A stretch of 64,000 nt of DNA from Scilla litardierei. Its lineage: Eukaryota > Streptophyta > Magnoliopsida > Asparagales > Asparagaceae. The position numbers and the translations under genes were made by a program. The stretch's first letter is position 1, and each line of letters begins with the position of its first letter. Below, in pieces: positions 29,644 through 64,000 of the stretch. Under the pieces are notes generated by a model. That model was given only the letters and a program-made list of their open reading frames with translations, did no database searches and was not told where the DNA came from. The stretch lies in contig CM061139.1 of NCBI GenBank assembly GCA_030789695.1, positions 5,781,878-5,845,877 on the forward strand, in the 5' to 3' direction.

Positions 29644-29809
29644 GCACAGGGAGTCACAAAATGAAGCGGGAAGCTTCGGGATGATTCTAATGAGTTCCAA
29701 GAGTGATCCTATGCTAAGATGTGAGTGCGGAGAAGTAAAGAAAGAAGACGAATAATCGCATATATATATAAATAATATTCATCATACAAAAACCAGCCGT
29801 TACAATTAA

Positions 29810-31069: not shown

Positions 31070-31274
31070 GGTCGGTAACAAATGTATATTTCCCCTCCCC
31101 TTATCTAAGAGAATGTATTGAAAAGAGAAAGCATCCATGAATGAAGAACTCTTTCTACCTCAAATTCGCCTCACGGACCTATCCGGGGTGGGGTAAAACC
31201 CTACTAATTGAGAATCTCGTGACCGATCGCAAGACCGTGGGATGACCCCCTCAGCGGACCGGCCACGAGACTGA

Positions 31275-31790
31275 CTGGGAGGTTAGGGGCAACTTCCCCC
31301 AACTAAAATCAGACATCAGATTGACCATAAGGCTGGGGGCAGCTCCCCCAGCATGTCGATCCATCGTTCAGTCATAAGAATGGGGGTAGCTTCCCCAGCA
31401 GGCTGATCGACTTAAACCGACCATAAGGCTGGGGGCAGCTCCCCTAGCGGGCCGGATAAACCGACCGACCGTAAGGCTGGGGTAACTCCCCCAGTTGGCC
31501 GATCATCGGGCCGAACGTGAGGCTGGAGGCAACTTGCCCAGTAGACTGGCCCATTGATCAGCTGTAAGACCGGGGGTAGCTTCCCCGGCAGATTGACCGA
31601 CCCGACCGATTGTAAGGCTGGAGGCAACTCCCCCAGCTGGTCAGAATATCGGTCGACTGTAAGCCTGATGGGTAGCCCCCCCAACGGGCAGACCGACCTA
31701 ATCTGCCGTAAGGCTGGGGGCATCTCCCCCAGTAGGCCGATCACCCGATCGCCTATAGGACCCGGGGCAAGCCACCCTGCATGGCGATCG
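31275..31790 (+). repeat. About 48-bp tandem array with CTGGGGG/CCCCCAG hairpins
   Basis: About eleven units have starts spaced 46-51 bp apart (near 31279, 31328, 31375, 31422, 31471, 31518, 31565, 31612, 31659, 31708 and 31756). The core is taaggctgggggcagctccc followed by ccag and a cgatc/gaccg-rich spacer. The arms CTGGGGG and CCCCCAG can form a stem with a five-base loop in the best units. The array lies between integrase and the antisense ORF; tandem repeats here are known for some Tat elements. Confidence 0.88.
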
Positions 31791-32035: not shown

Positions 32036-32957
32036 CTAAACCCCACCTCCCGCATGAGCATCCGGAGCATCATCGGGGGGCCTGGCTAGCTGCTCAACAC
32101 CGACAACGTGTACATCCCTTGTCGCCTCCTCTCCCTCAGAATCCAGCTGGAGCTCTTCGAATCGGATCCTGAAAAGTGGGAACCTTCGTTGGATCTCGGA
32201 CCGGCACCGTGCGAATCCCTTCTTAAAAGCCTCGTACATCGCCGCGACGACAAAAGAGGTGGCATACTCGTCTATGGCCTTCCGGGCAATCCGCTCAGGA
32301 TCCAACGTTCCCAGCTCCTGGATCTGCCCCTCGAGGATGGCAACTTGGCGCTGGTGCTCCGCCCGCTCTTTTTCGGCCTCCCGGGCACTCGCATTGAGTT
32401 TATCCAGGAGAACTCTCTCTCCTCCTCCACCGCCTACAGGAGCCTGGCGAGCTCCGTGGTGTCGGCTTCCACTGCTGGGCCACCATACCCTCTCACCTCA
32501 GTGGCCCTCATCAGCTCGGCTATCTGATCCTCGACCTTAGCCTTCTCGGCAAGGGCAAGAGCTCTCTCCAGATCCGACTCCAGGTGACTTGGCGCGTGCC
32601 TCAGTAACTTGGGTCACCTCGTCTCCACCCTCCTCGGCTTCAGGCTTCTGGGCCTGACCTACCTGACCTCCGAGAGCGCCACGAATTGGCATCTCATTGA
32701 AAGGCCGACCGAGCACAACTGCATCAGGAGGAAGAGGTGAGCTGAAGGCCCGTGCAAGTGACGGAACGAACGAACGAAAAGACCTCACCTATTGGCCGGC
32801 CTGTTTCACAAAAGCCGCAAGCCGATCACCCTTCACTCCGTCCAGCATGGATTTTTCCGAAGAGAGGCAGCAGTTTTCAGCCAGCCGAGCTGCCACCCTG
32901 CAATTGGAGAAGACGAACTCCTTCACCCCCACTGGAAAGCGTGGCCTGAGAAAACCT
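32036..32957 (-). pseudogene. Antisense ORF of the Tat element, C-terminal half
   Basis: Minus-strand reading frame, Ala/Glu/Arg-rich and probably helical. The end is clear (IARKAIDEYATSFVVAAMYE, then RCRSEIQRRFPLF, stop at 32036). The piece from 32788 down is Glu/Ala-rich and lies in another frame from its neighbours. It is separated from the N-terminal half (42156-43371) by L-A, with AACCT at both edges. Stops and frameshifts between 32310 and 32540 show it is dead. Confidence 0.6.
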
Positions 32958-35777
32958 TGTCACGCCCCGCTTCCCAAAAATATGGAGGCGAAGCGGGAGA
33001 AGGTCCGCTCAGACTTGAAGCTACAAAGCTGCAAGTCCGATAAGCGTCAATCAAATTTAAAACTGCAGGTCCTTGCAATGCGAGCGAAACAAGATAATAA
33101 TAATGAAATGAGACCAAAGAATAATCTTAGAATATCCATAAATATAAATTCCAACATCGCAGAAAAGCCACCAGGCTGAAATAAAAGAGAGTCTAAAGGC
33201 CCAACATGGCCAACAAAAGGTACAACGTACAAAACAACGGTGCTACGCACCGACAACTAACAACAAACCTAAAGCAAAAGCAACTCAACAGTCTCTAAGA
33301 CTGGTCTCCGGTGTCCTCGTACTCCTCGACGAACGTAGGCTCAGGCTCAGCGTCAGTAAACACCTCGTCCTCAACAACGGTCTCTGGCTCAGTGTCTAAC
33401 ATGTGACACCCAAAAGAGCAAGGGGCACATGTCAGCAAGTCTGGAAGACTTGTGCAAGGAAACTGAAAGTAAAGCAACCTAGCAGTTCTAGCATGATGCA
33501 ATGACATGGCAGTTAAAGTATGAGTGCAACAAGTAAGGTAAAGTAAAGTAAAGTATGAGCATGGCATGACATTCACAAGACAAGTACAAGACAAGAAAAG
33601 TAAGCACCTCGTGCACAGAGTTCACGCCTTACAGCTGAAGAGGCTGTACGGGCACACTTCTACGCTGAGTGGTCGCTCAACCCTACCCCTCCACGTGTAT
33701 CGAGCCAGGGCCTTACCCCCGAACGGTTATGCTCGCTTCTGGATCACGAGCCAGGAAGTGTTTTTAACAAGTATGGCGTAGGGGTGCACCTAGCCCGGGA
33801 CAAGCAAGTATAAGTATGTAGCGTGTGCTACGAATGCGACATTCAATGCATGGATGTCATGACATGACAAGTAGTAAAGCGTACAGGTAAGGAAAGTAAA
33901 CGTGACAGTTTAGTATGCATGATCAACAAGTTTAAAGAGTTGGATCTAGCTTCGTTGTCAAGCTAGATCATTTAGGTGACGGATCTAGTTTCGTTGTCAA
34001 ACTAGATCAAGTAGGCATCTAGCCAGCTATCATTTCACTGACTAGTCTCTTTTACGCTGAAAGCAAGGAAGTGGCCTAAAAACATGGCCCTACACAAGAG
34101 TTGGCAAGTTTCACTTGCCTGCAAGTACGACGTCTGAGCACACCGTCCAATGAGTCCAAAAATCACAATAATCCTACGTGCACAAGTCCACCGGCCTAAA
34201 GTCCATATTATTAATCTTGATTAGTGAATTTAAAACATTTAAAATACTTTAAAAATACTGATTTTAGTCTTGATTAGCATGCATTGGGTTTGGGGTCCTA
34301 GGGGTGCAAAGCGTTACCTCAACACGACGTGAAAGCTACACCGGCGTCGGGTAGCGACGCCGGGGTTTGGAATAAGAGAACGCGCTCCAAGTCCTGATTC
34401 CAATATAGTTTCCTCGCTGGAAAGTTCAGAGCAATCAACCGGGGCGACGATTCCAGATTCCAAAGCTAGCACGTGCGACGACGGGCTACGACGTGCGACG
34501 AAGTCGTACGCGGCAAGTCGTCAAAGAGAACACACCTAGGTGGGGCCCACAGTAGTCCTATGGACCTTTGGGGGACCCACAATACCTCTGGAGAACTTGG
34601 GGGGCCCACGGAGGCAAGTGGTACGACGGATGCGGGGTTGCGACGAATGACTCTCGGTCGTACAGCCTCGGTGCGGGGAGATCTCTCGGTCGCTGCGGGG
34701 GAACGGGGCTGTGCGGCGCTTGGGGGTGTGCAGCAGTGCGGGTGCGGGGGCCTCCTTCGGTCAGATCGGTAGGGAGGGTCGGTTGTGCGCTTGGATGCGA
34801 GCGGCTGCGACGTTGCAACGTTGTAGCGTTGCAAACGTCGGTCGGTGCAGGCGGCCCGATCGGTCAGGCGCTGTGCGGAGCGGGGCGACAAGGCGGGGTC
34901 GATGCGGAGCGCTGTGCGGAGCGGGGATGCGAAGCGGATGCGAGCGGGTGCGGGCCAAGCCCTCGGTCAGACCGAGGGAACGGAGCGGGGCGGTGCGCTG
35001 CGATGCGAGCGGCGATGGATGCGGGGGCGGCTAGCGGTCGGAGCGGGGAAAATTGGTTGGTTTTCTCGGTCAGAGCGGTGGCTGAACGTCGCAACGTTGC
35101 GGCGAATCGTCGCAACGTCCAATTTGGGTTTTGGAAGAGGCTAGGGCTAATTTCTTGCGAAAATAGGTCTTCCTAGGGGTTGCTTATATAGTATAGATGG
35201 GTTGACTTGGTCTAGGGCTAAATCAAATAGGATTAGAAGTTTAAAATAATTTAAAATTTGAAATTCAACTTCTCCAACTCACCCAAGGATTTGACTTGGT
35301 CCAAATGAGCTGGAAATTGGCTCAAAAATTCTTTAAAACGTTTAAAACTCAAATAAATTTTATTTGGTCGAAAATAATTTAAAAATTAATTATTAAAAAT
35401 ATTTTAAAGCTTGCTAAAAATGTAAAAGTGGTCAAATGAACTCCAAAAATTATAAAATAAATATCGGGGTGATCGTGGTGACGAAAGTGAGCTAACTAAG
35501 ATGACGGATCTCAATTTCGACGTCGGACGACGAAACCAAAAATAGAAACGTCTCCCGTCAAAAGTGAGAATCGCCACGTCTCATCGGGTAAGATTAAATT
35601 GTGGGAAAACGACTCGAGAAACGTCGTTCCAAAATAGTGCCACTATTTAATACTCTCAGAGACGTTCACAACGGCATATCACACGAAAGTGTTCACGAAC
35701 AAACAAAGTCTAAAACAAACACGTGCACGGTCAAAAGCACGTGCACGAACAACGTACCCCGAAAAGTGGTCGTTACA
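32958..35777 (-). repeat. L-A 3' LTR (2,820 bp)
   Basis: The + strand starts TGTCACGCCCCGC and ends GGTCGTTACA. A GC-rich island (about 34470-35110) sits downstream (sense strand) of the TATATAAG box read from 35190 to 35183. Long frames in the island (for example 34568-35176) are Arg/Cys/Gly-rich low-complexity translations, not genes. Confidence 0.93.
35183..35190 (-). promoter_or_regulatory. Candidate TATA box in the L-A 3' LTR
   Basis: TATATAAG on the minus strand, upstream of the GC-rich island; conserved at 41561-41568 and, as TATAAA, in L-B. Confidence 0.45.
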
Positions 35778-38700
35778 TCCTCCCCACCTTAGAATAAAGT
35801 CCGTCCTCGGACTTTCTAGTATAGCTAAGCACTCTAGTAACTACCCCAATCAAGTCATATTATAATTCAACCAGGTATAGTCATTACAAGTGCTTATATA
35901 TGCACTAGGTAGTCAAACATTAATACTACCAACACGTATATATATTTATATATATTCACGTACGTTATACATTTATACCCATTATAGCCAGTCAATTTCA
36001 TACATGTATTTCAATCATATATATAAGCATACATTCCTTATATCGCTACTACTTACCTAAACACAAAACAATATTTCAGATACTCATATAGGATAGTCTC
36101 ACACTTAGCAAATACAATCATTGCTCTACCTATAGGTACCTATGCACAAACATCAAGGGTATACTACCCTCTAATATTTCCTAGTATTCACCAAACACAT
36201 CAACACATGCAGTCACACCATACCATTATTAAATCAAATTCACTATATCTAATATACATTCACTATAGTTTCACAATATATATATAGTCATTCAATGCAT
36301 TCAAATATTTCACCATACATTCACATTACGTACGGTCCTATTAGTGTATTTACAACACGCCACCTATACCATAGTCATTAATACCTATAACTAAGCACAT
36401 ACTTACCCGTGCATGGTGCACACCCATACACGCTAACATTTCATTTACGCATACCAATCATACCATTATATTACAAGTACATCTACACACCTAGTTTAGC
36501 TAGTACACATTTGTTCACACAAGCAAGTCCTTAGTAAATAATTATACCACAAGACCAACACCTACAACTATATACTGGCGTAGCGACCCACAATCATGTG
36601 CGTAGCACAACCAGGCACAAACGCTCCTATCACTATACATACATCAAACATTGCTATATTCAACTACAAACATACATTCAATATACTTAGAGTATACCCA
36701 CTCAAGCTTGAGTGAGACTCAATACATATATCAGAATATTCTATATACGTAACACGGCATTCATACATATACCAATACCACTCCAACATATATATAGATA
36801 TATGTATATATATATATCTACCAATACAACCATATGCATACCATAGGTCAATCACACTCAATATTTGGTCGGGTAATACTTACATAGTTCAATCACTCTA
36901 TATACCATAATAATAACATTACAGACATCAGTACCCACATATAATTATAATATACTCTCTAATACATGCATACGTACTCATCGTATAGTCACACACACAT
37001 GTAACATATATATGTATATTCACACCATAGCCTACTACCTATAATTAGTATACTAACACATCTATACATACATAATTAAGATGTGCAATAGTCGTGTATA
37101 CCTCACGGTATGCACGCATGCAACATCCCACAAAGCAAGCAATACCAATCAAAATTATAATTCTACTATCATATGCATATCACCTATATACTCAGGCAAC
37201 AAAACATAACGACTTACGTCTAAGTATAATACATACCTACATACGAGCACATACACATACGTACTAATATATAGGTCACTCAATAGGCCTACTTACTTAT
37301 CTATATGTACACCTATTATCATCACACCTAGCATATACACTGCTTTACCAATCATTTTATTTCAACCATTATAAGTATCTCTTACTACATACACAACTTA
37401 GATTTTTCAACGCTAACTCTTATATACACAGGCATCTCTAGTATAGTATAGCTATCCACACAACAATCTATAACTACTAACACACAACAAATTCCTACTA
37501 TCACGAATAACTCCGAGTATATATATATGTATACCACACAATAGGCAAGCATCAATATACTATGGGGGGTACACTCATTCAAGCCCACGTACACAAGTTA
37601 GGTACGTGCACAACGACACCTCACAAAGGTCCAAGAGTCTACTAACAATTAAGGGTTGACACAGACATTGACGGACACTTAAGCCTAATCAATAGAGGGA
37701 GGTCGAAAGCGTGACGAGAGAAGGATCGATAAGCACGAATTCAGATAGGATGAATACAAGGAGGCAGCTTGGTTAGACGAAACATTAACTCAATGGTAAT
37801 GTTTAGGTTGAGGAAAAAGGGAGATGTAATGATGCTTAAATAGGATACAAAAAAGAAAATAGGGTGAATAGCATATGCTAAAATACGTGGATTTTGAAAA
37901 CTGTCGTTCTTCAAAAGTTGAAATCCCAGTCTGAAAAGAAATATTGGAGGTCGATAAAACGAGTTGTTCAAAATAAATTTGAGTCGAACATTCATAATAA
38001 AAGAAAATGGTCTATTGGTTTTAAAATTTTTAAAAGGAAGTAAAATCATTTACACGAATATTAAGGACATGGTTTAGAAAATTCTTTCCGTCAGTAATTT
38101 AATATAATGTTGGCAAAAAGTTTTGGAAAGTCAAGAATGAAATCAAGTAACGGAAGAATTTAAACTCATGTTGAATGCATTCAAAACTCTAGGCTATGGA
38201 AAATTTAAAATGATCGATTTGAAACTACTTTTAGAGAACCAGGGTTTGCCAAAAATGAAAAACCGATTTACACAAGGTTCTTAATATACGAGCACAACAA
38301 GTCTGGTACGGATATAAAAATAGTTGAAAGTATGTATGGTGCATGGAAAAATAATATTAACTTATTAGTAGAATTATCGAAATCGAATAGCAAGTCTTTA
38401 AAATCAAATCATGGAGGGTCTTAAATCAGGAAGTGGTTATGAAAATAGTAATTTTGCAAAAAAAATCTGAAGTAGCGAAAACGACGAGCAAAAAAAACCA
38501 ACTTGCTGAAAGCTGAAACTCCATGTGCCTTGAAAGTATATGAATGGCATAAATCAGGAGGGAAAATTACAAGTTGAATAAAAGTACGATTCAGAATAAA
38601 ATTAATATATGAAGGGACGACGCATTTGCATAAGTACGAAAAACATAGGCTGGGAAAATACTATAAGCTAGTATTCAAAAATTCCGACAAACGTTTTTTT

Positions 38701-39337
38701 TTAAAAAATTAAATCAATGAAGGAGTATGAAGTATAAGTATATTAAAATTTTGAACAAAGTTAAACTTAGTGGAAGAGAATACTTTCAGAAGGTTCAAGT
38801 TTTGCAATGGCGATGTTTGTAAATTGACGACGATCGTCATGAGGCGATCTCGTGAATCGAGGCAAGGAAATTGGTCAGGTGATCAAAGCATACATACGCC
38901 TAGGATATGAATCAGGAAAGTCTACGGAAACTCCTACGGTCGACCAACTAAAGATTAGGAACTAGGCGCTAAGACCTTCTAAGGGGCTGGACGGAAACGA
39001 AATGCGTTCAGCTTGGTCCGAAATCGATGAACCCAAGCGAACGACAAAAGGAAATTTTAGAGGTCTAATATGGTCAGGGTTATGCAATAACCACTAAGGT
39101 AACTCCTACGACGATTAAATCAATTGCTAGAAGGGGGTCTAACTACAATTAGGGCCTCTAACTAGCAAGCACAGACGTCTAACTAAGCCTTCTTATCACC
39201 TAGTGTCATAAGAAAACGACTAGACTCAGGGCTTCTGACTCGGATGTTGCAATTTATTTAATGGACATTCTGTTATCATCGTTGTTTCGTTAATTCGCAA
39301 TTGCAAGACCGGACCTGCATGGGCCACCAACAAAACC
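35778..39337 (-). other. L-A noncoding interior with polypurine tract and primer-site region
   Basis: No domain-bearing frame on either strand. On the sense (minus) strand the primer-site region ggttttgttggtggcccatg abuts the 5' LTR at 39337, and taaggtggggagga (35791-35778) abuts the 3' LTR. The segment 35800-37600 is strikingly G-poor on the + strand (C-poor on the sense strand) and full of TATA/GTATGT-like strings. The remainder (37650-39300) is A-rich on the + strand. Confidence 0.8.
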
Positions 39338-42155
39338 TGTCACGCCCCGCTTCCCAAAAATATGGAGGCGAAGCGTGAGAAGGTCCGCTCAGACTTGAAG
39401 CTACAAAGCTGCAAGTCCGATAAGCGTCAATCAAATTTAAAACTGCAGGTCCTTGCAATGCGAGCGAAACAAGATAATAATAATGAAATGAGACCAAAGA
39501 ATAATCTCAGAATATCCATAAATATAAATTCCAACATCGCAGAAAAGCCACCAGGCTGAAATAAAAGAGAGTCTAAAGGCCCAACATGTCCAACAAAAGG
39601 TACAACGTACAAAACAACAGTGCTACGCACCGACAACTAACAACAAACCTAAAGCAAAAGCAACTCAACAGTCTCTAAGACTGGTCTCCGGTGTCCTCGT
39701 ACTCCTCGACGAACGTAGGCTCAGGCTCAGCGTCAGCAAACACCTCGTCCTCAACAACGGTCTCTGGCTCAGTGTCTAACATGTGACACCCAAAAGAGCA
39801 AGGGGCACATGTCAGCAAGTCTGGAAGACTTGTGCAAGGAAACTGAAAGTAAAGCAACCTAGCAGTTCTAGCATGATGCAATGACATGACAGTTAAAGTA
39901 TGAGTGCAACAAGTAAGGTAAAGTAAAGTAAAGTATGAGCATGGCATGACATTCACAAGACAAGTACAAGACAAGAAAAGTAAGCACCTCGTGCACAGAG
40001 TTCACGCCTTACAGCTGAAGAGGCTGTACGGGCACACTTCTACGCTGAGTGGAGCTCAACCCTACCCCTCCACGTGTATCGAGCCAGGGCCTTACCCCCG
40101 AACGGGAATGCTCGCTTCTGGATCACGAGCCAGGAAGTGTTTTTAACAAGTATGGCGTAGGGGTGCACCTAGCCCGGGACAAGCAAGTACAAGTATGTAG
40201 CGTGTGCTACGAATGCGACATTCAATGCATAGATGTCATGACATGGCAAGTAGTAAAGCGTACAGGTAAGGAAAGTAAACATGACAGTTTAGTATGCATG
40301 ATCAACAAGTTTAAAGAGTTAGATCTAGCTTCGTTGTCAAGCTAGATCATTTAGGTGACGGATCTAGTTTCGTTGTCAAACTAGATCAAGTAGGCGTCTA
40401 GCCAGCTATCATTTCACTGACTAGTCTCTTTTACGCTGAAAGCAAGGAAGTGGCCTAAAAACATGGCCCTACACAAGAGTTGGCAAGTTTCACTTGCCTG
40501 CAAGTACGACGTCTGAGCACACCGTCCAATGAGTCCAAAAATCACAATAATCCTACGTGCACAAGTCCACCGGCCTAAAGTCCATATTATTAATCTTGAT
40601 TAATGAATTTAAAACATTTAAAATACTTTAAAAATACTGATTTTAGTCTTGATTAGCATGCATTGGGTTTGGGGTCCTAGGGGTGCAAAGCGTTACCTCA
40701 ACACGACGCGAAAGCTACACCGGCGTCGGGTAGCGACGCCAGGGTTTGGAATAAGAGAACACGCTCCAAGTCCTGATTCCAATATAGTTTCCTCGCTGGA
40801 AAGTTCAGAGCAATCAACCGGGGCGACGATTCCAGATTCCAAAGCTAGCACGTGCGACGACGGGCTACGACGTGCGACGAAGTCGTACGCGACAAGTCGT
40901 CAAAGAGAACACACCTAGGTGGGGCCCACAGTAGTCCTAGGGACCTTTGGGGGACCCACAATACCTCTGGAGAACTTGGGGGCCCACGGAGGCAAGTGGT
41001 GCGACGGATGCGGGGTTGCGACGAATGACTCTCGGTCGTACAGCCTCGGTGCGGGGAGATCTCTCGGTCGCTGCGGGAGAACGGGGCTGTGCGGCGCTTG
41101 GGGGTGTGCAGCAGTGCGGGTGCGGGGGCCTCCTTTGGTCAGATCGGTAGGGAGGGTCGGTCGTGCGCTTGGATGCGAGCGGCTGCGACGTTGCAACGTT
41201 GTAGCGTTGCAAACGTCGGTCGGTGCGAGCGGCCCGATCGGTCAGGCGCTGTGCGGAGCGGGGCGACAAGGCGGGGTCGATGCGGAGCGCTGTGCGGAGC
41301 GGGGATGCGAAGCGGATGCGAGCGGGTGCGGGCCAAGCCCTCGGTCAGACCGAGGGAACGGAGCGGGGCGGTGCGCTGCGATGCGAGCGGCGATGGATGC
41401 GGGGGAAGCTAGCGGTCGGAGCGGGGAAAATTGGTTGGTTTTCTCGGTCAGAGCGGTGGCTGACCGTCGCAACATTGCGGCGAATCGTCGCAAAGTCCAA
41501 TTTGGGTTTTGGAAGAGGCTAGGGCTAATTTCTTGCAAAAATAGGTCTTCCTAGGGGTTGCTTATATAGTATAGATGGGTTGACTTGGTCTAGGGCTAAA
41601 TCAAATAGGATTAGAAGTTTAAAATAATTAAAATTTTGAAATTCAACTTCTCCAACTCACCCAAGGATTTGACTTGGTCCAAATGAGCTGAAAATTGGCT
41701 CAAAAATTCTTTAAAACGTTTAAAACTCAAATAAATTTTATTTGGTCGAAAATAATTTAAAAATTAATTATTAAAAATATTTTAAAGCTTGTTAAAAATG
41801 TAAAAGTGGTCAAATGAACTCCAAAAATTATAAAATAAATATCGGGGTGATCGTGGTGACGAAAGTGAGCTAACTAAGATGACGGATCTCAATTTTGACG
41901 TCGGACGACGAAACCAAAAATAGAAACGTCTCCCTTCAAAAGTGAGAATCGCCACGTCTCATCGGGTAAGATTAAATTGTGGGAAAACGATTCGAGAAAC
42001 GTCATTCCAAAATAGTGCCACTATTTAATACTCTCAGAGACGTTCACAACGGCATATCACACGAAAGTGTTCACGAACAAACAAAGTCTAAAACAAACAC
42101 GTGCACGGTCAAAAGCACGTGCACGAACAACGTACCCCGAAAAGTGGTCGTTACA
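39338..42155 (-). repeat. L-A 5' LTR (2,818 bp)
   Basis: Near-identical to 32958-35777; differences are scattered single bases and small indels (for example near 40051). It holds the same TATATAAG box (41561-41568) and GC-rich island (40850-41490). Confidence 0.93.
41561..41568 (-). promoter_or_regulatory. Candidate TATA box in the L-A 5' LTR
   Basis: TATATAAG on the minus strand at the position equivalent to 35183-35190; this would drive the genomic RNA of L-A. Confidence 0.45.
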
Positions 42156-46709: not shown

Positions 46710-46754
46710 TGTTGTTTTCTGTGATTCAAATCCCGTGGATCAGTTTTCCAAGGT

Positions 46755-47105
46755 GACTCAGTCGAGTAGAAGGCTACTCGGTCGAGCAGCAAGCTCCTCG
46801 ACCGAGCAGCATGAAGACCCTGATAGACCGAGCAGTCAGAGAGCTTGGAAAGTTTTCCCCTTTGACTCGGGTGACTACTACTAGGTCGAGTAGGTGGCTA
46901 CTCGGTCAAGCAACAAGCTGCTCGACCGAGCAACATGAAGGCTTTATTTGCCCAAGCAGCCCGAGGGCATTTCACTTGAAGAGGGACACTGACACTCGGG
47001 CCGAGTAGCTAGTCTACTCGACCGAGTCGACTTGAATCCACCTAGGGCATTTCAGCTCGATCAAGCAGATATCCGACTCAGGCCGACTCAGGCCGAGTCG
47101 GTGCG
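46755..47105. repeat. CTCGGTCGAG / GCTCGACCGAGC palindrome array in the copia LTR
   Basis: Repeated blocks resembling gtcgagtagaaggctactcg, then gtcgagcagcaagctnctcg and accgagcagcatgaag, occur twice about 150 bp apart and then decay. The same array is at 61105-61440. Adjacent inverted copies can form hairpins. Confidence 0.85.
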
Positions 47106-47161
47106 GGCCCATGTGCCGAAACCGACGGCTGGATGCATTTTTCCCCATTGTTTTGGGTTTG

Positions 47162-47169
47162 TATTTAAA
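47162..47169 (+). promoter_or_regulatory. Candidate TATA box of the copia 5' LTR
   Basis: TATTTAAA, about 57 bases after the array; the 3' LTR has TATTAAAA at the same place (61502). Confidence 0.45.
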
Positions 47170-47672
47170 CCTAACTATTGTTTTAGATTATATGAAGCCT
47201 CTTTTCAGATTGAGAGAGTTTTGGAGAGCCTCTAGCTACCCCATTGGAGATTGGAGAGAGTTTTTGGGTTTGTGTTCTTGAGAGAAAGGTTTGGTTTTTT
47301 CCTTCTCTTCTTCTTCCATTGATTTCTTCCTCTTGAGTGGATTCGTGAGGGCTTGTTCCGTTGACAAGTTATTACTTACGCATGAGGGAGAGTTTTGTAA
47401 CCCTAATTGTTTGGATATCTAAACTAGTGGAATCGTCTCGGATTGGATTACTGGATGTAGGTTGTTTACAACCGAACCAGGGTAAATTCTCTTGTGTCTG
47501 CGATCAATTTATTTGTTGCTGTGATTTGTTTGCTACTTTCTATTGCAAGGTCATTTAATATTTTTGTTGGGTCTTCGAGATAAGATTTTTGCTAGCCCTA
47601 TATTCCTGATCAGTTTATTAGGGTTGGTTTTCCCATTGATCTCAAGGGGATTTGGATTTCACCTCCAACAAG

Positions 47673-47724: not shown

Positions 47725-48220
47725 ATGGTGTCTTTGGCAACTTTGAACATTAAGAAGTTCATTGGTCAGAATGACTTTCGGATCTGGCAGACGGAGGTGA
47801 AGAATGTTCTTATGCAGACGGGGTGTTACCAGATCGTATTCGATGTCTCGAATATCAATAAAGATGTGATTACATCCGCTAGGGCGGAGATGGAGAGGAA
47901 GGCGTACATCGCGATTCAGTTGTCATTATTAGATAATGTTCTAAGTGAAGTCCTGGATAAGGTGACATCATCTGATATGTGGAAGAAGCTTGAGGGACTA
48001 TACATGAAGAAATCCTTCACGAGTCACCTATATTTGCTTCAGCAGCGGTATACTCTCAAGATGAAGGCTGGTTCAGTGGTAAAGGACACATGGAAGAATT
48101 GAACAGGATTGTGCTAGAGTTGCGTGGTATGTATGTGAAGATTGAAGTTGAGCAGCAAGCGATTATCTTGTTGTGCTCATTCCCTGAAGAGTATAATCAG
48201 TTTGTTCGATCGATGATTTA
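47725..48220 (+). pseudogene. Copia gag, 5' part (interrupted by L-B)
   Basis: The start Met at 47725 lies 40 bases after the primer site. The text KKFIGQNDFRIWQTEVKNVL, followed by DMWKKLEGLYM and a leucine-rich segment, is the copia Gag (UBN2/gag-polypeptide) pattern. A one-base loss near 48090 shifts the frame. At 48220 the frame stops at the ATTTA duplication and the L-B LTR. The remainder, from a VEEVKAAL segment, resumes at 57425. Confidence 0.88.
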
Positions 48221-51062
48221 TGTAACGACCACTTTTCGTCGTACTTTGTTCGTGCACGTGCTTTTGACCGTGCACGTGTTTATTTTAGACTTCGTTTGTT
48301 TGTGAACACTTTCGTGTGATATGCCGTTGTGAACGTCCCCGAGAGTATTAAATAGTGGCACTAATTTTGAACGACGTTTCTCGAGTCGTTTTCCCACAAT
48401 TTAATCTTATTTGATGAGACGTCGCGATTTTCACTTTTGACGGGAGACGTTTCTATTTTTTGTTTCGTCGTCCTACGTTGAAATTGAGATCCGTCTTCTT
48501 AGTTAGTTCACTTTCGTCATCACGATCACCCCGATATTTATTTTATAATTTTTGGAGTTTATTTGACCACTTTTATATTTTTAACAAGGTTTATAATATT
48601 TTTAATAATTAATTTTTAAATTATTTTCGGCCAAATAAAATTTATTTGAGTTTTAAACGTTTTAAAGAATTTTTGAGCCAATTTCCAGCTCATTTGGATC
48701 GCATCAAATCCTTGTGTGAGTTGGAGAAGTTGAGACTCAAATTTTAAATATTTTTGAACTTCTATTCCTATTAGATTTAGCCCTAGACCAAGTCAACCCA
48801 TCTACACTATAAACAACCTTTAGGAAGACCTATTTTCTCAAGAAAATAACCCTAGCCGCTTCCAAAACTCAAATTTGACGTTGCGACGAATCGTTGCAAC
48901 GTTGCGACGAACTTCTACCGCACGACCGGGGAAAACAGCTCCGTTCCCCCGCTCATACCGGTAGCCGCCCCCGCACCAAGCCCTCGCCCGCACCCCGCTG
49001 CAGCCGCTGCATCGCAACCCCGCACCAAGGCCGCTCAGACCGAGAGCTCAGCCCGTATCCCCGCTCCGCACCGTGCCCGCTCTGTCGCCCCGCTCCGCAC
49101 CGTGCCCGACCGAAGGCCCCGCCCGCACCGACCGCTCTCCGCAACGTTGCAACGTTGCAACGTTGCAACCCCGCATCCGCAGCGCCCGACCGAGACCCTC
49201 CTCCGCACCAACCGAGAGGAAGCCCCGCACCCCGCAGCTGCGACCGACCCGCACCGCTGCACAGCCGTCCCCCTGTGTCTGACCGAGCCAAGTCCCCGCA
49301 CCGAGGCTGTACGACCGAGAGCCATTCGTCGCAACCCCGCACCCGTCGCACCACTTACCACCGTGGGCCCCCCAAGTTCTCCAGAGGTATTGTGGGTCCC
49401 CCATAGGTCCCTAGGACTACTGTGGGCCCCACCTAGGTGCTTTCTCTTCGAGGATTCATCGCGTACGACGTTGCGACACGTCGTAGGCCGTTGTCACACG
49501 TGCTAGCTTTGTTATCTGGATTCGATGCTCCGGTTGATTGCTCTGAAATTTCCAGCGAGGAATCTAATTGGAATCTGGACTTGGAGCGCGATCTTTTATT
49601 CTAACCCCCGGCGTCTCTACCCGATGCCGGTGTAGCTTTCGCGTCGTGTTGAGGTAACGCTTTGCACCCCTAGGACCCCCAACCCAATGCATGCTAATCA
49701 AGACTAAAATCAGTATTTTTAAAGTATTTTAAATGTTTTAGAATTGACTAATCAAGATTAATAAAACGGATGTAGGCCGGTGGACTTGTGCACGTAGGGT
49801 TATTGTGATTTTGGACTCGTTGGACGGTGTTGCTCAGACGTGATACTTGCAGGCAAGTGAAACTTGCCAACCCTTGTGTAGGGCCATGTTTTTAGGCCAC
49901 TTCCTTGCTTTTAGCGTAAAAGAGACTAGTCAGTGAAATGATAGCTGGCTAGACGCCTACTTGATCTAGTTTGACAACGAAACTAGATCCGTCACCTAAA
50001 TGATCTAGCTTGACAACGAAGCTAGAGCCAACTCTTTAAACTTGTTGATTATGCATACTAAACTGTCATGTTTACTTTCCTTACCTGTACGCTTTACTAC
50101 TTGCCATGTCATGACATCCATGCATTGAATGTCGCATTCGTAGCACACGCTACATACTTGTACTTGCTTGTCCCGGGCTAGGTGCACCCCTACGCCATAC
50201 TTGTTAAAAACACTTCCTGGCTCGTGATCCAGAAGCGAGCATTCCCGTTCGGGGGTAAGGCCCTGGCTCGATACACGTGGAGGGGTAGGGTTGAGCGACC
50301 ACTCAGCGTAGAAGTGTGCCCGTACAGCCTCTTCAGCTGTAAGGCGTGAACTCTGTGCACGAGGTGCTTACTTTACTTGTCTTGTACTAGTGAGTGTTAC
50401 TTGTATAACTTGTCATCCATGCCATGTTTAAATGACATGCTCGTACTTTACCTTACTTTACCTTACTTGTTGCACTCATACTTTAACTGTCATGTCATTG
50501 CATTCATGCTAGAACTGCTAGGTTGCTTTAATTTTGCCTACTTTCAGTTTCCTTGCACAAGTCTCTTATAGACTTGCTGACATGTGCCCCTTGCTCTTTT
50601 GGGTGTCATATGTTAGACCCTGAGCCGGAGACCGTTGCTGTGTACGTAATGTTTTACTGACGCTGAGTCTGAGTCCATGATTGCCCAAGTGGAGTTTTGT
50701 GGACACCAGAGACCCTTCTTGGTGACTTGCTGAGTTCCTTTTGTTTTAGGCTTTGTTGTTAGTTGTCGGTGCGTGGCACCTTTGTTTTGTACGTTGTACT
50801 TTTGTTGGCCATGTTTGGGCCTTTAGACTCTTTTTCTTTCTAGCCTGGTGGCTTTTTCTGTGATGTTGAAACTTATTTTATGGATATTCTGAGATATCTC
50901 TTTTGTCTCATTTCATTATTATTATCTTTGTTTCGTTCGCGTTGCAAGGACCTGCAGTTTTAAATTTGATTGACGCTTATCGGACTTGCAGCTTTGTAGC
51001 TTTAAGTCTGAGCGGATCTTCTCACGCTTCGCCTCCATATTTTTGGGAAGCGGGGCGTGACA
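48221..51062 (+). repeat. L-B 5' LTR (2,842 bp)
   Basis: It runs TGTAACGACC to GGGGCGTGACA. The TATAAA box is at 48808-48813 and the GC island at about 48885-49420. It is 29 bp longer than its partner because of a 29-bp tandem duplication starting at 49059 and 49088. GCAACGTTGC repeats lie at 48895-48910 and 49140-49170. Confidence 0.93.
48808..48813 (+). promoter_or_regulatory. Candidate TATA box of the L-B 5' LTR
   Basis: TATAAA in ctacactataaacaac, conserved at 55194-55199 in the 3' LTR and as TATATAAG in L-A; about 75 bases upstream of the GC island. Confidence 0.45.
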
Positions 51063-54000
51063 GGTTTTATTGGTGGCCCATACAGGTCCAGTCTTGCAAT
51101 TGCGAATTGACGGAACAACGATAATAACGGAATGTCCATTAAATAAATTGCAACATCTGAGTCATAAGCCCTGAGTCTAGTCGTTTTCTTAGGACACTAG
51201 GTGATAAGAAGACTTAGCTAGACGTCTGTGCTTGCTAGTTAGAGGCCTCTGTTTGTTAGTTAGACTCCCTGCCAGAAATTGATTAAATCGTCATAGGAGT
51301 TACCTTGGTGGTTCTTGTCTAACTCTAATCATAGTAGACTTCGAGAATTTCCTTTAGTCGTTCGCTTGGTTTCATCGATTTCGGACCAAGCTGAACGCAT
51401 TTCATTACCGTCTAGCTCCTTAGAAAGTCTTAACGCTTAGTTCTTAATCTTTAGTTGGTCGACCGTAGGAGTTTCCCCTAGATTCTCCTGATTCATATCC
51501 TAGGTGTATGTATGTTCTGATCATCTGACCAATTTCCTTGCCTCGATTCATGAGATCGCCTCATGACGATCGTCGTCAATTTTCGACCCTCTCCATTACA
51601 AACCTGAATCTTCTGAAAGTATTTTTTGATTTCCTCTTTCCCTAAGTTTAAATTTGTTCAAAAATTTTATATAAATATACTTATCTTTGTACTCCTCGTT
51701 GATTTAATTCTTTTTAAATTTTTGTCGAAATTTTTGAATAATAGTTTATAATACTTTTTCATCCTACACTTTTGTACCTATGAAAATACATATTTCCTTT
51801 CATATATTAATTTAATTCTGAACGGTACTTTTATATTGCCCAATTCGATTTATAATTTTTCCTTACTGATTTATGCCATTCATATACTTTTCAAGTCACT
51901 TGGGATTTCAGCTTCCCGCAAGTCGATGTTATGCTCATCGTTTTCTTTATTTCAGATTTTGTAAAAAATTACTATTTCATAACCATTTCCTAATCTGGAC
52001 CTTCCATAGTTTGGTTTTAAAGCTTTGCTATCGATTTCGATAATTCTACTACTAAGTTATTTTTCCGTGCACCATACATACTTTCAATTATTTTTATATC
52101 TGTACCAGACTTGTTGTGCTCGTATATTAAGAACCTTGTGTAAATCAGTTTCTCAATTTTTGGCAAACCTTGGTTCTCTAAAAGTAGTTTCAAAATTGAT
52201 TATTTTAAATTTTCCATAGCCTAAAAGTTTTGAAAGCATTTAACCTGAGTTTAAATTCTTCCGTTACTTGATTTCATTCTTTGACTTTCAAAAACTTTTG
52301 CCAACATTATATTAAATTACGGCCGTATAATATTTTCTAAAAAAAATTACGTCTTTAATGTCCGTGCGAATGATTTACTTTCTTTTCTTAATGATTTGCA
52401 ATAAGCCAATAAAACATTTTCTCTTATTATGAATATTCGACTCAAACTTATTTTGAACAACTCGTTTTATCGACCTCCAAATGTTTTTATACAAGACGAG
52501 GATTCCAACATTTGAAGTACAACAGTTTTCAATTTCACGTATTTTAGTTTATGTTATTTTCGCCATTTCCTTCCTCTATCCTATATAAGTATCACTACAT
52601 CTCCCTTCCCCTACCTAAACATTCACCAGTGAATCACATTTTTCCCTAACCAAGCTGTCTCCTTGTATACATCCTATCTGGATTCGTGCTTATCAATCCT
52701 ACCCTCGTCACGCTCTCGACCTCGACCTCCCTTATTGCTTAGGCTTTAGTGCCCGCCAATGTCTGTGTCAACTCTAAGTTGTTAGTAGACCTTGGACCTT
52801 GTGAGGTAGTCGTAGTGCACGTACCTAGGTTGTGTCCGTGGGTTGAATGAGGGTACTCCCCCATAGTATAATGATGCTTGCCTATTGTGTACGTATATAT
52901 ATATATATACGCGGAGTTACTCGTGATATTATGAAGTTGTTTGTGTGTTATTATTTATAGATTTGTAAGTGGTTAGCTATACCATAATAGGGATGCCGGT
53001 GTATATAAGAGTTAGTGTTGGAATATCTAATGGAGTGTATGTAGTTAGAGATACTTGTAATGGTTGAAATAAAATGATTGGTAAAGCTATGTGTATGTTA
53101 GGTGTGATAATAATAAGTGTATGTATGGTTAAGTGAGTAGGCCTATTTTATGAACTATATACTAGTACGTGTGAGTATGTGCACATAGGTAGATATATAT
53201 AGTGTTTAGACGTAAGTAGTTATGTTTTGTTTCCTGAGTATAAATGTGATATACATATGGTAGTAGGATTATAATTTTGTTTGGTATTGCTTGCTTTTAC
53301 GGGATGTTGCATGCGTGCATACCGTAAGGTATACACGACTATTGCACATCTTAATTATGTATGTATAGATGTGTTAGTATACTAATTATAGGTAGTAGAC
53401 TATGGTGTGAATATATATGTTGCATGTGTGTGACTATACGATGAACGCGTACGTATTAGGGAGTGTATTATAGTTATACGGATGCGGATGTCTGTATTAT
53501 TATTATGGAATATAGAGTGATTGAACTATGTGAGTATTGCCTGACTAAATATTAAGTGTGATTGACTTATGGTATGTATATAGACCTATATATATTGGAA
53601 GTGGTATTGGTATAGGTATGAATGCCGTGTTACGTATATAGAATATTCTGATATGTGTACTGAGTCTCACTCAAGCTTGAGTGGGTATACTCTAAGTATA
53701 TTGAATGTATGTTTGTAGTTTGAATATAGCAATGTTTGATGTATGTATAGTGATAGAAGTGTTTGTGCCTGGTTGTGTTACACACATGATTGTGGGTCGC
53801 TACACCAGTATATAGTTATAGGTGTTGGTCTTGTGGTATAGTTAATTACTAAGGACTTGCTCGTGTGAACGTATGTGTACTAGCTAAACTAGGTGTGTAG
53901 ATGTGCTAGTTATATAATGATGTGATTGGTATATGTGAATGAAAAGTTAGCGTGCGTGGGTATGCACCATGCACGGGTAAGTATGTGCTTAGTTATAGTT

Positions 54001-54606
54001 ATTGGTGACTATGGTATATGTGGCGTGTCGTAAATACAGTTATAGGACCGTATGTGAGGTGAATACGTGGTGAACTATTTGCATGCATTTGAATGACTAT
54101 ATATATTATGAAACTATAGTAGTGGTGAATGTATATTAAATACAGTAAAGTTTGATTTAAAATGGTATGGTGTGACTACATGTGTCGAGATGTTTGGTAT
54201 TGGATGAATATTAGGGAGTTGTATACCCATGTTCTCTTACGCATAGGTAGTTATCTATACGTAGAACAACGATTGTATTTGCTAAGTGTGAGACCATACT
54301 TATATGAGTAACTGAAATATTGTTGTGTTTAGGTAAGTAGTAGTTATATAAGGGATGCATGCTTATATATATGATTGAAATACATGCATGAAATTGACTG
54401 ACTATAATAGGTATAAGTATATGACGTGCGTGAATGTATATATATACGTGTTGGTAGTGATAATGTTTGACTACCTAGTGCGTATATAAGCACTTGTAAT
54501 GGTTATACCTGGTTTGAATTATAATGTGACACGATCGGGGTAGTTACTAGAGCGACTAGATATATTAGAAATTCTGAGGACGGACTTTATTCTAAGGTGG
54601 GGAGGA
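51063..54606 (+). other. L-B noncoding interior
   Basis: No recognisable protein. The left part (51120-52700) is T-rich. The part at 52860-54590 is C-poor and full of GTATGT/TATATA strings, mirroring the G-poor segment of L-A. The last 14 bases form the polypurine tract. Confidence 0.8.
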
Positions 54607-57419
54607 TGTAACGACCACTTTTCGTCGTACTTTGTTCGTGCACGTGCTTTTGACCGTGCACGTGTTTATTTTAGACTTCGTTTGTTTGTGAACACTTTCA
54701 TGTGATATGCCGTTGTGAACGTCCCCGATAGTATTAAATAGTGGCACTAATTTGGAACGACGTTTCTCGAGTCGTTTTCCCACAATTTAATCTTATTTGA
54801 TGAGACGTCGCGATTTTCACTTTTGACGGGAGACGTTTCTATTTTTAGTTTCGTCGTCCGACGTTGAAATTGAGATCTGTCTTCTTAGTTAGTTCACTTT
54901 CATCATCACGATCACCCCGATATTTATTTTATAATTTTTGGAGTTTATTTGACCACTTTTATATTTTTAACAAGGTTTATAATATTTTTAATAATTAATT
55001 TTTAAATTATTTTCGGCCAAATAAAATTTATTTGAGTTTTAAACGTTTTAAAGAATTTTTGAGTCAATTTCCAGCTCATTTGGATCGCATCAAATACTTG
55101 TGTGAGTTGGAGAAGTTGAGACTCAAATTTTAAATATTTTTGAACTTCTAATCGTATTAGATTTAGCCCTAGACCAAGTCAACCCATCTACACTATAAAC
55201 AACCTTTAGGAAGACCTATTTTCGCAAGACAATAACCCTAGCCGCTTCCAAAAATCAAATTTGACGTTGCGACAAATCGTCGCAACGTTGCGACGAACTT
55301 CTGCCGCACGACCGGGGAAAACAGCTCCGTTCCCCCGCTCAGACCGGTAGCCGCCCCCGCACCAAGCCCTCGCCCGCACCCCGCTGCAGCCGCTGCATCG
55401 CAACCCCGCACCAAGGCCGCTCAGACCGAGAGCTCAGCCCGTATCCCCGCTCCGCACCGTGCCCGACCGAAGGCCACGCCCGCACCGACCGCTCTCCGCA
55501 ACGTTGCAACGTTGCAACGTTGCAACCCCGCATCCGCAGCGCTCGACCGAGACCCTCCTCCGCACCGACCGAGAGGAAGCCCCACACCCCGCAGCTGCGA
55601 CCGACCCGCACCGCTGCACAGCCGTCCCCCTGTGTCTGACCGAGCCAAGTCCCCGCACCGAGGCTGTACGACCGAGAGCCATTCGTCGCAACCCCGCACC
55701 CGTCGCACCACTTACCACCATGGGCCCCCCAAGTTCTCCAGAGGTATTGTGGGTCCCCCATAGGTCCCTAGGACAACTGTGGGCCCCACCTAGGTGCTTT
55801 CTCTTCGAGGATTCGTCGCGTACGACGTTGCGACACGTCGTAGGCCGTTGTCGCACGTGCTAGCTTTGGAATCTGGATTCGTTGCTCCGGTTGATTGCTC
55901 TGAAATTTCCAGCGAGGAATCTAATTGGAATCTGGACTTGGAGCGCGATCTTTTATTCCAACCCCCGGTGTCGCTACCCAACGCCGGTGTAGCTTTCGCG
56001 TCGTGTTGAGGTAACGCTTTGCACCCCTAGGACCCCCAACCCAATGCATGCTAATCAAGACTAAAATCAGTATTTTTAAAGTATTTTAAATGTTTTAGAA
56101 TTCACTAATCAAGATTAATAAAACGGATGTAGGCCGGTGGACTTGTGCACGTAGGGTTATTGTGATTTTGGACTCGTTGGACGGTGTTGCTCAGACGTGA
56201 TACTTGCAGGCAAGTGAAACTTGCCAACCCTTGTGTAGGGCCATGTTTTTAGGCCACTTCCTTGCTTTTAGCGTAAAAGAGACTAGTCAGTGAAATGATA
56301 GCTGGCTAGACGCCTACTTGATCTAGTTTGACAACGAAACTAGATCCGTCACCTAAATGATCTAGCTTGACAACGAAGCTAGAGCCAACTCTTTAAACTT
56401 GTTGATCATGCATACTAAACTGTCATGTTTACTTTCCTTACATGTACGCTTTACTACTTGCATGTCATGACATCCATGCATTGAATGTCGCATTCGTAGC
56501 ACACGCTACATACTTGTACTTGCTTGTCCCGGGCTAGGTGCACCCCTACGCCATACTTGTTAAAAACACTTCCTGCCTCATGATCCAGAAGCGACCATTC
56601 CCGTTCGGGGGTAAGGCCCTGGCTCGATACACGTGGAGGGGTAGGGTTGAGCGACCAATCAGCGTAGAAGTGTGCCCGTACAGCCTCTTCAGCTGTAAGG
56701 CGTGAACTCTGTGCACGAGGTGCTTACTTTACTTGTCTTGTACTAGTGAGTGTTACTTGTATAACTTGTCATCCATGCCATGTTTAAATGACATGCTCGT
56801 ACTTTACCTTACTTTACCTTACTTGTTGCACTCATACTTTAACTGTCATGTCATTGCATTCATGCTAGAACTGCTAGGTTGCTTTACTTTTGCCTACTTT
56901 CAGTTTCCTTGCACAAGTCTCTTGTAGACTTGCTGACATGTGCCCCTTGCTCTTTTGGGTGTCAAATGTTAGACCCTGAGCCGGAGACCGTTGCTGTGTA
57001 CGTGATGTTTTACTGACGCTGAGTCTGAGTCCATGATTGTCCAGGAGGAGTTTTGTGGACACCGGAGACCCTTCTTGGTGACTTTGCTGAGTTCCTTTTG
57101 TTTTAGGCTTTATTGTTAGTTGTCGGTGCGTGGCACCTTTGTTTTGTACGTTGTACTTTTGTTGGCCATGTTTGGGCCTTTAGACTCTTTTTCTTTCTAG
57201 CCTGGTGGCTTTTTCTGTGATGTTGAAACTTATTTTATGGATATTCTGAGATATCTCTTTTGTCTCATTTCATTATTATTATCTTTGTTTCGTTCGCGTT
57301 GCAAGGACCTGCAGTTTTAAATTTGATTGACGCTTATCGGACTTGCAGCTTTGTAGCTTTAAGTCTGAGCGGACCTTCTCACGCTTCGCCTCCATATTTT
57401 TGGGAAGCGGGGCGTGACA
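54607..57419 (+). repeat. L-B 3' LTR (2,813 bp)
   Basis: Near-identical to 48221-51062, lacking the 29-bp duplication. TATAAA at 55194-55199. Confidence 0.93.
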
Positions 57420-61059: not shown

Positions 61060-61676
61060 TATTGCTTTCTGTGATTCAAATCCCATGGAGCAGTTTTTCC
61101 AGGTGACTCGGTCGAGTAGAAGGCTACTCGGTCAAGCAGCAAGCTCTCGACCGAGCAACATGAAGACATTGACAGACCGAGCAGGCAGAGAGCTTGGGAA
61201 GTTTTCCCCTTTGACTCGAGTGACTCCTACTCGGTCGAGTAGGAGGCTACTCGGTCGAGCAGTAAGCTGCTCGACCGAGCAGCATGAAGGCTTTATTTGC
61301 CCGAGAAGCCCGAGGGCATTTCGCTTGAAGATGGATACTGACACTCGGGCCGAGTAGCTAGGCTACCTGACCGAGTCGACTTGACTCCACCTAGGGCATA
61401 TCAGCTCGACCGAGCTGACAGCCGACTCGGGCCGCGTCGGCACGGGCCCATGCGCAGAAACCGATGGCTGGATGTGTTTTATTCCCTTTGTTTTGGGTTT
61501 GTATTAAAACCTAACTATTGTTTTAGATTAGGTGAAGCCTCTTTTCAGATTGAGAGAGTTTTGGAGAGCCTCTAGCTACCCCATTGGAGATTGAGAGAGT
61601 TTTAGGGTTTGTGTTCTTGAGACAAAGGTTTGGGTTTTTCTTCTCTTCTTCTTCTATTGATTTCTTCCTCTTGAGT
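61060..61676 (+). repeat. Copia 3' LTR, interrupted after 617 bp
   Basis: It starts TATTGCTTTCTG (second base changed from the canonical TG) and follows the 5' LTR including the palindrome array (61105-61440). At ttgagt it meets the L3 terminus TGTAACGG. Confidence 0.88.
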
Positions 61677-62253
61677 TGTAACGGCCGCTTTCCGACCGTT
61701 CGTAGTTTCTGTGTGCACGTGCTTTATCGTGCACGTATTTTATTTGGGTTTTCCTGTGCTCCGGCATCAGTAATGCGATATGTCGTTGTGATAGTTTCGG
61801 GGTGTTGGCTTTTATGGAAATTTTGGGAACGTCGTTTCACGGCTCGTTTCATCGCAAAACGACTTTAAACGATAGGGGCGTTTTAGTCATTTGACTCTAA
61901 ACACCGTTTCCAATTTTACGTAAATTCTTGGTAGGCGTTACGCACGATCAGGCTCCATAGATCTATTGTCTCGTCTCCACGATCGCCCCGGTATTTTCGG
62001 ATTATTTTTCTGACGCCCGGATTGAGAGATATCGCCCAGAATAACCTCGACCGTCGATTTTTTCCCCAATCAAATTCAATTTCGAAATTTGTTAGCCAAA
62101 TCTGGCTAAATATCTTATTTAAAATCGTTTTAAAATCCTTCCTAAACTGTTTCCTATTCGTCCCCTTGACTTACCCCTAACTGTACACCCCTATCCCTTG
62201 CCCCTCACCCATTTAACCCTTAATTTAGGTCTTTTTAGCTAGCTAATACCCTA

Positions 62254-62261
62254 TTTATAAT
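62254..62261 (+). promoter_or_regulatory. Candidate TATA element of L3
   Basis: TTTATAAT upstream of the GC-rich zone, in the relative position of the L-family TATA box. Confidence 0.3.
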
Positions 62262-62924
62262 ATCTAACCCTAACCCTAATCCAACCCTAACCCAAATCGC
62301 TCAGCCGCCGGCCCCAAAACGCAAAACCCCCGATCTCTCCCTCAGCTCTCTCTCTCCCCCTCACGGCACAGCCGCAACCCCCCTCTGTGACAGCACTTAC
62401 GGCCAACCCGCCGCCCGCCGCAAGCCGCCTTAGCCCTCACAGCACGCCACCCCCGATCTCCATCTCTGACATTTCCCCTCTCGCATCCACAGCGAGCGCT
62501 GCCGTGAACCTCAGTGAAGCTGCCGCCTGCAGCATCTTCCGCCGCCGCTGCTGTGCTCCGCCACGGCCTCTCGCCGTCGCCGCTGACCCCGACCCCCCGT
62601 GCAGCGCCCCCGATCGCTGCCGCGATTCACGGTGAGGCCGCCGTCACCGCTGACCGATCGCCGCCGCGATCCCTGTGCAGCAGCGCCTCACCTGCGCTCT
62701 CTCCGCCTCCCCTCCATCTCCCTTCGATCACCGCCGCTACGCGATCCCCAAGCGCCGCCTTCCCCCTCGCTCAGCGATCCGCAGCCCGCACCACCCCGTG
62801 TCGCTCCTCTCCCCTCTCAGTCGCCTGATCCCGCCGCCACTCTGTAGAGCGCCACCGCTGCGATCTGAGGCCGTCGCCGCCGCCGAGGCCGTTCTGCCGC
62901 CTCCCCCGCGAGACCCCAATCGCC

Positions 62925-63419
62925 GTTCTCGATTCTCTAAGGGAATGCTCTGTGCTCAGTGACGATGTTGTGAACTCGCTTGCCTCGAGCTCGATTGTGT
63001 CAGCTCGGTCCAGGATTGCTGATGTTTTGGTGAAGAATAGTACATTGTTGAGGTCGGAGCTTATGTTGAGAGTATTTTAGGGACGTTCGACAGATCTTTA
63101 TCCTTTGGTGAGAGAGTCAGCGGCTAATGGAGTTACTGAGTTATTGGGGAGAGATGAACTTTGGGTCGATGGAGCTCAAGAATGATGATGTAGCAGCTGT
63201 TCGGTTGCAAATTTGGCAAACATTGTTTGAATGGCTGAACATGATCACCTATAAGTGCAGGAGTAATACATGCAAATGTTTCTTGGTGTGTTAGCTGATA
63301 CTAGTCGGGTGGTCAGACATACTGCAAGAGAGGTGCTCCGGTCGATGAAGCTCCACTTACCTGAGATGTTTAAATCTTCAGTTGATGGTCTTATCACAAA
63401 TTTGGTTACCCACCCCGAG
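62925..63419 (+). pseudogene. Captured host gene fragment: HEAT/ARM-repeat protein, SIEL/INTS4-like
   Basis: Three segments read as a plant HEAT-repeat protein. In the frame of 62952: SDDVVNSLASSSIVSARSR to DLYPLVRESAANGVTELLG, with one TAG at 63078-63080 where Leu is expected. In the frame of 63169: NDDVAAVRLQIWQTLFEWLN. From 63267: YMQMFLGVLADTSRVVRHTA to HLPEMFKSSVDGLITNLVTH. From memory these resemble consecutive repeats of the SIEL (SHORT-ROOT-interacting, Integrator subunit 4-related) protein, with a stretch missing between the first and second segments. It has no start, is out of frame twice and lies within L3. Host origin is firm on style; the family name is tentative. Confidence 0.55.
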
Positions 63420-64000
63420 AGACCGTCACGCTTTCTGTCCGATTAGGTGGACACTGAGGATCAGTGACGAGACGTTCCAAAAATTGGAGTCGCAACGCGA
63501 GCACCGCCACCGTTTCCAGACCCGACGTCAGATCTACGTGCGATCGTTATAAAAGGTAAGTACCCTAAATGCATAGTAAAAACCCACACCGTAGCAAACT
63601 GAAAACCTAATCTAAAATCTGTCAACGTGAACTAAATTTACTTTCTGCATCTGTAAAACGTTGCCCACTGTAGAAATCGACCATCGGACGACCTTTCTGT
63701 GCACATAGGGTAGTGGTCAATCTAGGTTGAACAAAACATCAAAATGTGACTTTTGACTAATAGGGTAGTCCCGACAACCTAGAAACAAACCTAAATAGGA
63801 CTTATTGAAAATGCGACCTGACACCGTCGCCGTGACACTGTTTCAGACGGACTACCGCGGACGCGACGACTGGACGAGGCGCTCCGGGAGGACGACACTC
63901 TCGCCACCGCATGCAAGTGTATCCTACTTGCACTTTTGGCCGTGCTTAGGCCTTAGTTGGTTAGAACGGATAACTGTGAACAAATAGAACCGGACGTGAA

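Follow-up and report, generated by a model that had tools for sequence, protein, structure and literature searches.

Uptake of host gene fragments by plant LTR retrotransposons is known, as are LTR changes made when templates are switched from one retrotransposon to another; the examples include Bs1, TRIMs and 425 maize elements for the former and BARE-2 for the latter (PMC13317346, PMC4717578, PMC2774510, PMC1950507, PMC3726574, PMC3414828, PMC12477314). The 425 maize LTR elements with gene fragments are described in PMC2774510. Bs1 of maize and similar elements contain host gene segments inside an LTR element, as does the locus described here, and those of Bs1 are exon-only (PMC13317346, PMC4717578, PMC2774510). 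TRIMs, such as GmaRetroS15 of soybean, also share features with it, being non-coding elements with exon-only fragments and 5-bp target-site duplications (TSDs) (PMC4717578). BARE-2 and VejuL acquired foreign sequence through template switching, that of BARE-2 entering its LTR from Wis-2 (PMC13317346, PMC1950507). Gene capture by a retrotransposon is thus familiar; capture within the end repeat itself, traceable step by step, is unusual.

We analysed a 64-kb stretch of DNA (the window; G000:C10:5781878-5845877, from a genome of 3.68 Gb), in which an LTR contains spliced exons of a host gene. The features referred to below are these:

61677 to 64000, plus strand: solo LTR of a LARD-like element, ending at 65124 (3,448 bp in total), recognised by its TG..CA ends, TSD and empty-site counterpart.
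61672 to 61676, no strand: target-site duplication TGAGT, with its second copy beyond the window at 65125-65129.
46712 to 47639, plus strand: second, uninterrupted copy of the invaded copia-type LTR (the empty-site counterpart), identified by alignment over the joined flanks.
62920 to 63175, plus strand, sense to the LTR: part of donor exon 1 (CDS 302-557), 243/256 identities, E 1e-119.
63168 to 63175, plus strand: GATGGAGC, an 8-bp microhomology where exon 1 (CDS 557) jumps to exon 4 (CDS 1032).
63168 to 63278, plus strand: part of donor exon 4 (CDS 1032-1143), 103/112 identities, E 2e-40.
63279 to 63419, plus strand: the complete donor exon 5 (CDS 1144-1284), to which exon 4 is fused exactly at the former GT..AG intron 4; 136/142 identities over 63278-63419, E 7e-66.
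63420 to 63500, plus strand: LTR sequence after the capture, common to the C7_120 LTRs and partly to the capture-free C4_72 LTR.
27141 to 28700, minus strand: distant LTR relative (about 76%) without donor sequence, in the inspected region 27101-31500.

The LTR starts at 61677 with TGTAACGGCC and ends at 65124 with GGCGTGACA, 1,124 bp of its length lying past the window end. Its joined flanks aligned without a break to the empty-site copy at 46712-47639 (835/929 identical, 15 gap positions) and, together with the flanking TGAGT copies, this identifies a 3,448-bp solo LTR. The preliminary description had placed a gene fragment inside an LTR at 62925 to 63419; the location within the LTR and the right end hold, and the left end moves to 62920. 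An origin of the segment as genomic DNA outside the LTR was ruled out by the empty-site counterpart and by the presence of the capture in both LTRs elsewhere. The LTR had also been described as about 0.5 kb longer than its relatives. This holds in part: from LTR start to a right-hand anchor it exceeds two capture-free LTRs by about 260 and about 360 bp, both rough figures, with one start set by motif only and the other LTR containing unrelated AT-rich DNA.

Two elements of about 9.2 kb were also seen in the window (32951-42155, minus strand, and 48220-57419, plus strand). Their LTRs measure 2.83 kb, and the last 50 bp or so are common with the capture LTR family; the plus-strand element has a non-coding interior and PBS-side and PPT-side sequences very similar to those of the capture family. 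These elements and the capture family form a clan with common ends and different LTR bodies.

We found that 62920-63419 matches exons of the SIEL/INTS4 gene of the same genome (C13:585.05 Mb, minus strand) at 92-96% identity, as expected of the SIEL/INTS4-like HEAT-repeat fragment that had been proposed. In the PDB the donor product matched Integrator subunit 4 (E 1.5e-24); HEAT repeats are present, and annotated plant SIEL proteins were among its matches (top, Cinnamomum, 44%), which marks it by homology as a SIEL/INTS4 relative. Our model of the donor gene covers exons 1-6, with five exons bordered internally by GT..AG and exon 6 following past the 54-kb intron 5. This intron spans C13:584998455-585052426. 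Chance similarity to the donor was ruled out by the E value of 1e-119 and the exact splice junction.

At the join of exons 4 and 5 the LTR reads ..CAAATG/TTTCTTGG.., where the donor reads ..CAAATG/gtaaac...tttgcag/TTTCTTGG.. The 299-bp GT..AG intron 4 is gone at its exact borders, and the source was therefore spliced RNA; RNA-mediated capture had already been suspected from segments that abut without introns and skip a stretch. The skipped donor stretch is CDS 558-1031 and, since it holds introns 1-3, these are uninformative on splicing. The switch from exon 1 to exon 4 falls inside both exons, at the common GATGGAGC; by a rough reckoning, a shared run of at least 8 would be found at a random junction about once in 10,000. 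Both in the window LTR and in those of C7_120 the capture runs to the final base of exon 5 and lacks exon 6 (GAAGAAGAAGATATA). Exon 6 was also considered as the origin of 63420-63500 and rejected, as it was located and its sequence differs. On both sides the host sequence is flanked by element-specific sequence in the LTR alignment.

The captured piece contains stops and frameshifts, and its differences from the donor are spread about equally over the three codon positions; it is therefore not kept as coding sequence, and coding use was ruled out. It drifts as neutral filler, free of coding constraint. An Rfam search gave nothing useful. The LTRs of the window and of C7_120 have a good 5' splice-site match, AAAGGTAAGT, 3' of the capture (window 63552-63561); the other aligned LTRs read CAGGTTGGT or CAAGTTGGT at the equivalent position.

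A whole-genome search with 62900-63430 as query returned 27 first-look candidates, which resolved into 28 matches. Ten loci contributed 18 LTR pieces, each exceeding 250 bp; the rest comprise the three donor exons, a single piece of 73 bp and six of 53 bp. All ten loci show the exon 1-exon 4 junction, which was seen in 17 of these 18 LTR pieces. The remaining one, in the third C13_272 LTR, ends at CDS 555 within the stretch fetched, and the 73-bp match 9.7 kb beyond that LTR may be its continuation, split by an insertion. With the same junction inside LTRs at other loci, the capture is therefore neither a later insertion private to the window copy nor flanking DNA. It is inherited and eroding at ten insertion loci, an extent beyond the window copy alone. 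At least two LTRs carry it at seven of these loci (C13_272 counted as a three-LTR complex), in agreement with the earlier suggestion that both LTRs of related elements would do so. At C4_110 it is limited to the 3' LTR because the 5' LTR lost 1,430 bp, and at C11_85 one capture-bearing LTR was seen, the locus being examined for that LTR alone. The C13_272 complex (L014/L015, C13:272301717-272314925) has two interiors and is like complexes described for template switching or recombination.

Identical 5-bp TSDs were found at six of the ten capture loci (window, TGAGT; C7_120, AGAAT; C12_287, GTAGA; C11_44, TCGAC; C13_422, GTAGC; C4_110, TCGGG); the assessment covered seven loci (all but C13_272, C3_84 and C11_85), and at the seventh, C7_60, one of five bases differs. 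C13_500 also has an identical 5-bp TSD. LTR pairs are spaced 5.9-15.5 kb apart, and LTRs with a located end have TG..CA termini, the exception being C13_272_2, which ends ..GAAA; for C7_60_5 and C13_500_5 the end was an arbitrary choice. Apart from the window LTR, complete LTRs with the capture (C7_60_5 set aside) measure 3,209-3,736 bp. Interiors were surveyed in seven elements, a set formed without C11_44, C7_60 and C13_500. All seven are non-coding and 2.70-2.78 kb long; stop-free frames of at least 90 codons occur in C12_287 (105 and 110) and C13_272 (90) only, none of them in common. Nearly constant sequences, GGTTTTAGTGGTGGCCCATG 3' of the 5' LTR and AAGGTGGGTAGAA 5' of the 3' LTR, are candidate PBS and PPT positions by constancy alone. 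LARD elements have long LTRs and a non-coding interior, as here, and the present elements, likened to them by definition and not by sequence comparison with a named family, are LARD-like and non-autonomous. With their non-coding interior they are presumably trans-mobilised and would need the enzymes of another element for movement.

The capture was found in successively shorter forms. The longest, C7_120, spans CDS 207-557 and 1032-1284, and its first part is identical to the donor at 341/351 positions (97%) in each LTR. The window form lacks the left 95 bp (CDS 302-557 and 1032-1284), and at the remaining capture loci the right part is also gone (CDS 299 or 302-557 and 1032 to about 1107). 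All that remains of the donor in C13_500 and C1_71 (L026, L027, L028) is CDS 1053-1107, a 55-bp stretch with 85-89% identity. We compared 15 LTRs, the 55-bp type and C11_85 set aside: a non-donor base is common to all 15 at CDS 540, 542 and 1058, and to all except C7_120 at nine further sites. Several independent captures were ruled out by the same jump and these shared differences.

In a donor-rooted tree C7_120 falls outside a clade of the window and 12 others (100/99). The window is the first branch within this 13-member clade (80/74, under the level starred by the tool), followed by C13_272, with the other ten together (97/93). The window LTR is thus likely an intermediate in the trimming series, as judged from a branch supported at 80/74; we had at first taken it to result from recombination between two capture forms, now our second choice in view of the rooted tree. 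A trimming order of left end, then right end, agrees with the order of the tree and is moderately supported by it.

Nine representative capture-bearing LTRs (36 pairs) were used to compare divergence along the LTR. Between elements the mean was 5.9% for the capture, 16.7% for the left flank, 18.0% for the near right flank and 11.1% for the far right, and the capture was lower than each flank region in 36/36 pairs. Within single elements (six 5'/3' LTR pairs) the capture diverged by 1.7%, the left flank by 3.1% and the near right flank by 2.4% (the far-right value, 8.3%, is spoiled by the arbitrary C7_60_5 end). Since the capture is less diverged within elements too, part of the contrast may reflect a lower mutation rate; this within-element slowdown is smaller than the threefold contrast between elements. 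These values suggest, without proving, that the capture moved between LTR lineages by recombination. Tree tests, run on groups chosen once the identities were known, gave mixed results. For a group of the window and C13_272 the right flank gave rejection (p-AU 0.025), the left did not (0.111); for the window with C7_120 neither flank did (0.401, 0.221). Seven rows grouped by right-flank identities were rejected as a group in the capture (0.0003) and are no clade in the right-flank tree either.

Querying the genome with the right flank gave 8,574 first-look candidates; scores were obtained for 40. All but one of these 40 (86-92%) lie outside the ten capture loci, and donor sequence was absent from the two that were inspected, so that within this very large family the capture seems to be uncommon and, from 40 scored of 8,574, near relatives of the window LTR right flank appear to lack it. 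Most simply, the piece was taken up once and later exchanged among LTR lineages; some of the pattern can be put down to slower change, to constraint or to its loss from many lineages.

We consider it probable (roughly 0.8) that a template switch to spliced SIEL/INTS4 mRNA occurred within an LTR, was copied into both LTRs, and passed from a single founding event through trimming and exchange. While a LARD-like element was being reverse transcribed, a spliced SIEL/INTS4 mRNA packaged with it would have served the growing cDNA as template for a time, before synthesis returned to the element RNA; on this mRNA the cDNA would have passed between exon 4 and exon 1 by way of the 8-nt microhomology. 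A switch inside LTR sequence would be copied into both LTRs. According to PMC1950507, each round makes the two LTRs anew from one set of RNA segments, and hence alike; a switch inside the LTR should therefore show in both, as seen. The single event would have founded a lineage whose longest known form is that of C7_120 and in which trimming led to the window form, to that of the other loci and to the 55-bp group. The capture is found today in diverged LTR backgrounds, which it may most simply have reached through template switching between co-packaged element RNAs, and LTR-LTR recombination would have reduced the window copy to a solo LTR.

5'-transduction would also account for a capture that, as in the window and C7_120, stops exactly with exon 5 and lacks exon 6. 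A family element in donor intron 5 would then have received, by splicing of a donor-promoter transcript, exon 5 at an LTR acceptor, and the chimeric RNA would have been reverse transcribed, template switching being required for the left junction only. The 54-kb intron offers room for many insertions; yet no LTR of the capture family was found in it, just one unrelated 390-bp match, twice, and the exact exon end could arise by chance in, at a rough guess, a few per cent of cases. An acceptor AG could not be demonstrated because C4_72, the only tail-bearing capture-free LTR examined, carries other DNA before the tail. According to the review PMC13317346, no plant example of 5'-transduction is reported. 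We regard this route as unlikely, and find similarly doubtful the broader picture in which a host-mRNA cassette in an LTR acts as an exchangeable module, taken up once, possibly by such splicing, and then passed between lineages by recombination.

The missing intron would also be explained by a LINE-made processed SIEL pseudogene that entered the LTR at the DNA level, by insertion or gene conversion. We hold this to be very improbable: no intronless SIEL copy outside LTRs was recognised among the 28 matches, three short pieces (the 73-bp piece, C12_203 and C1868) set aside, and donor sequence runs straight into LTR sequence, as judged from the alignment alone. Were the captured piece under constraint, it could look as if it had spread recently, and the low divergence between elements (5.9% vs 17-18%) would fit selection for a promoter, packaging or RNA role that keeps the capture in the element. 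Erosion from both ends to 55 bp, the numbers of first-look candidates (27 with the capture as query, 8,574 with the right flank), and differences distributed over codon positions all speak against such selection, which we think quite unlikely.

Under the template-switch reading, a single event can be traced from a long form, 97% identical to the donor in its first part, to a 55-bp remnant, an ordered record of uptake and of erosion by reverse transcription. A fragment captured within an LTR is duplicated with every transposition and brings host sequence into the regulatory end of the element. Its transcripts might silence the donor, as the preliminary description had suggested; the copies offer a natural test of whether such sequences direct small RNAs at an Integrator gene. 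Open-access literature, searched with narrow phrases and including few subscription papers, gave no account of plant LTRs that contain exons of a host gene, the position of fragments often being unstated there; the arrangement may be new. LARDs form a row in a table of PMC1950507. In Bs1-type elements the fragment is given as lying in the element or its interior, or its position is unstated in the accounts cited, whereas here it lies inside the LTR and occurs twice per element. The host-gene matches of TRIMs are in internal regions, and TRIMs, at 1.2-1.4 kb, are far smaller than the present elements (PMC4717578). Finally, the foreign sequence of BARE-2 and VejuL, as described in the sources above, came from another retrotransposon or from unknown DNA, whereas here it came from spliced host mRNA.
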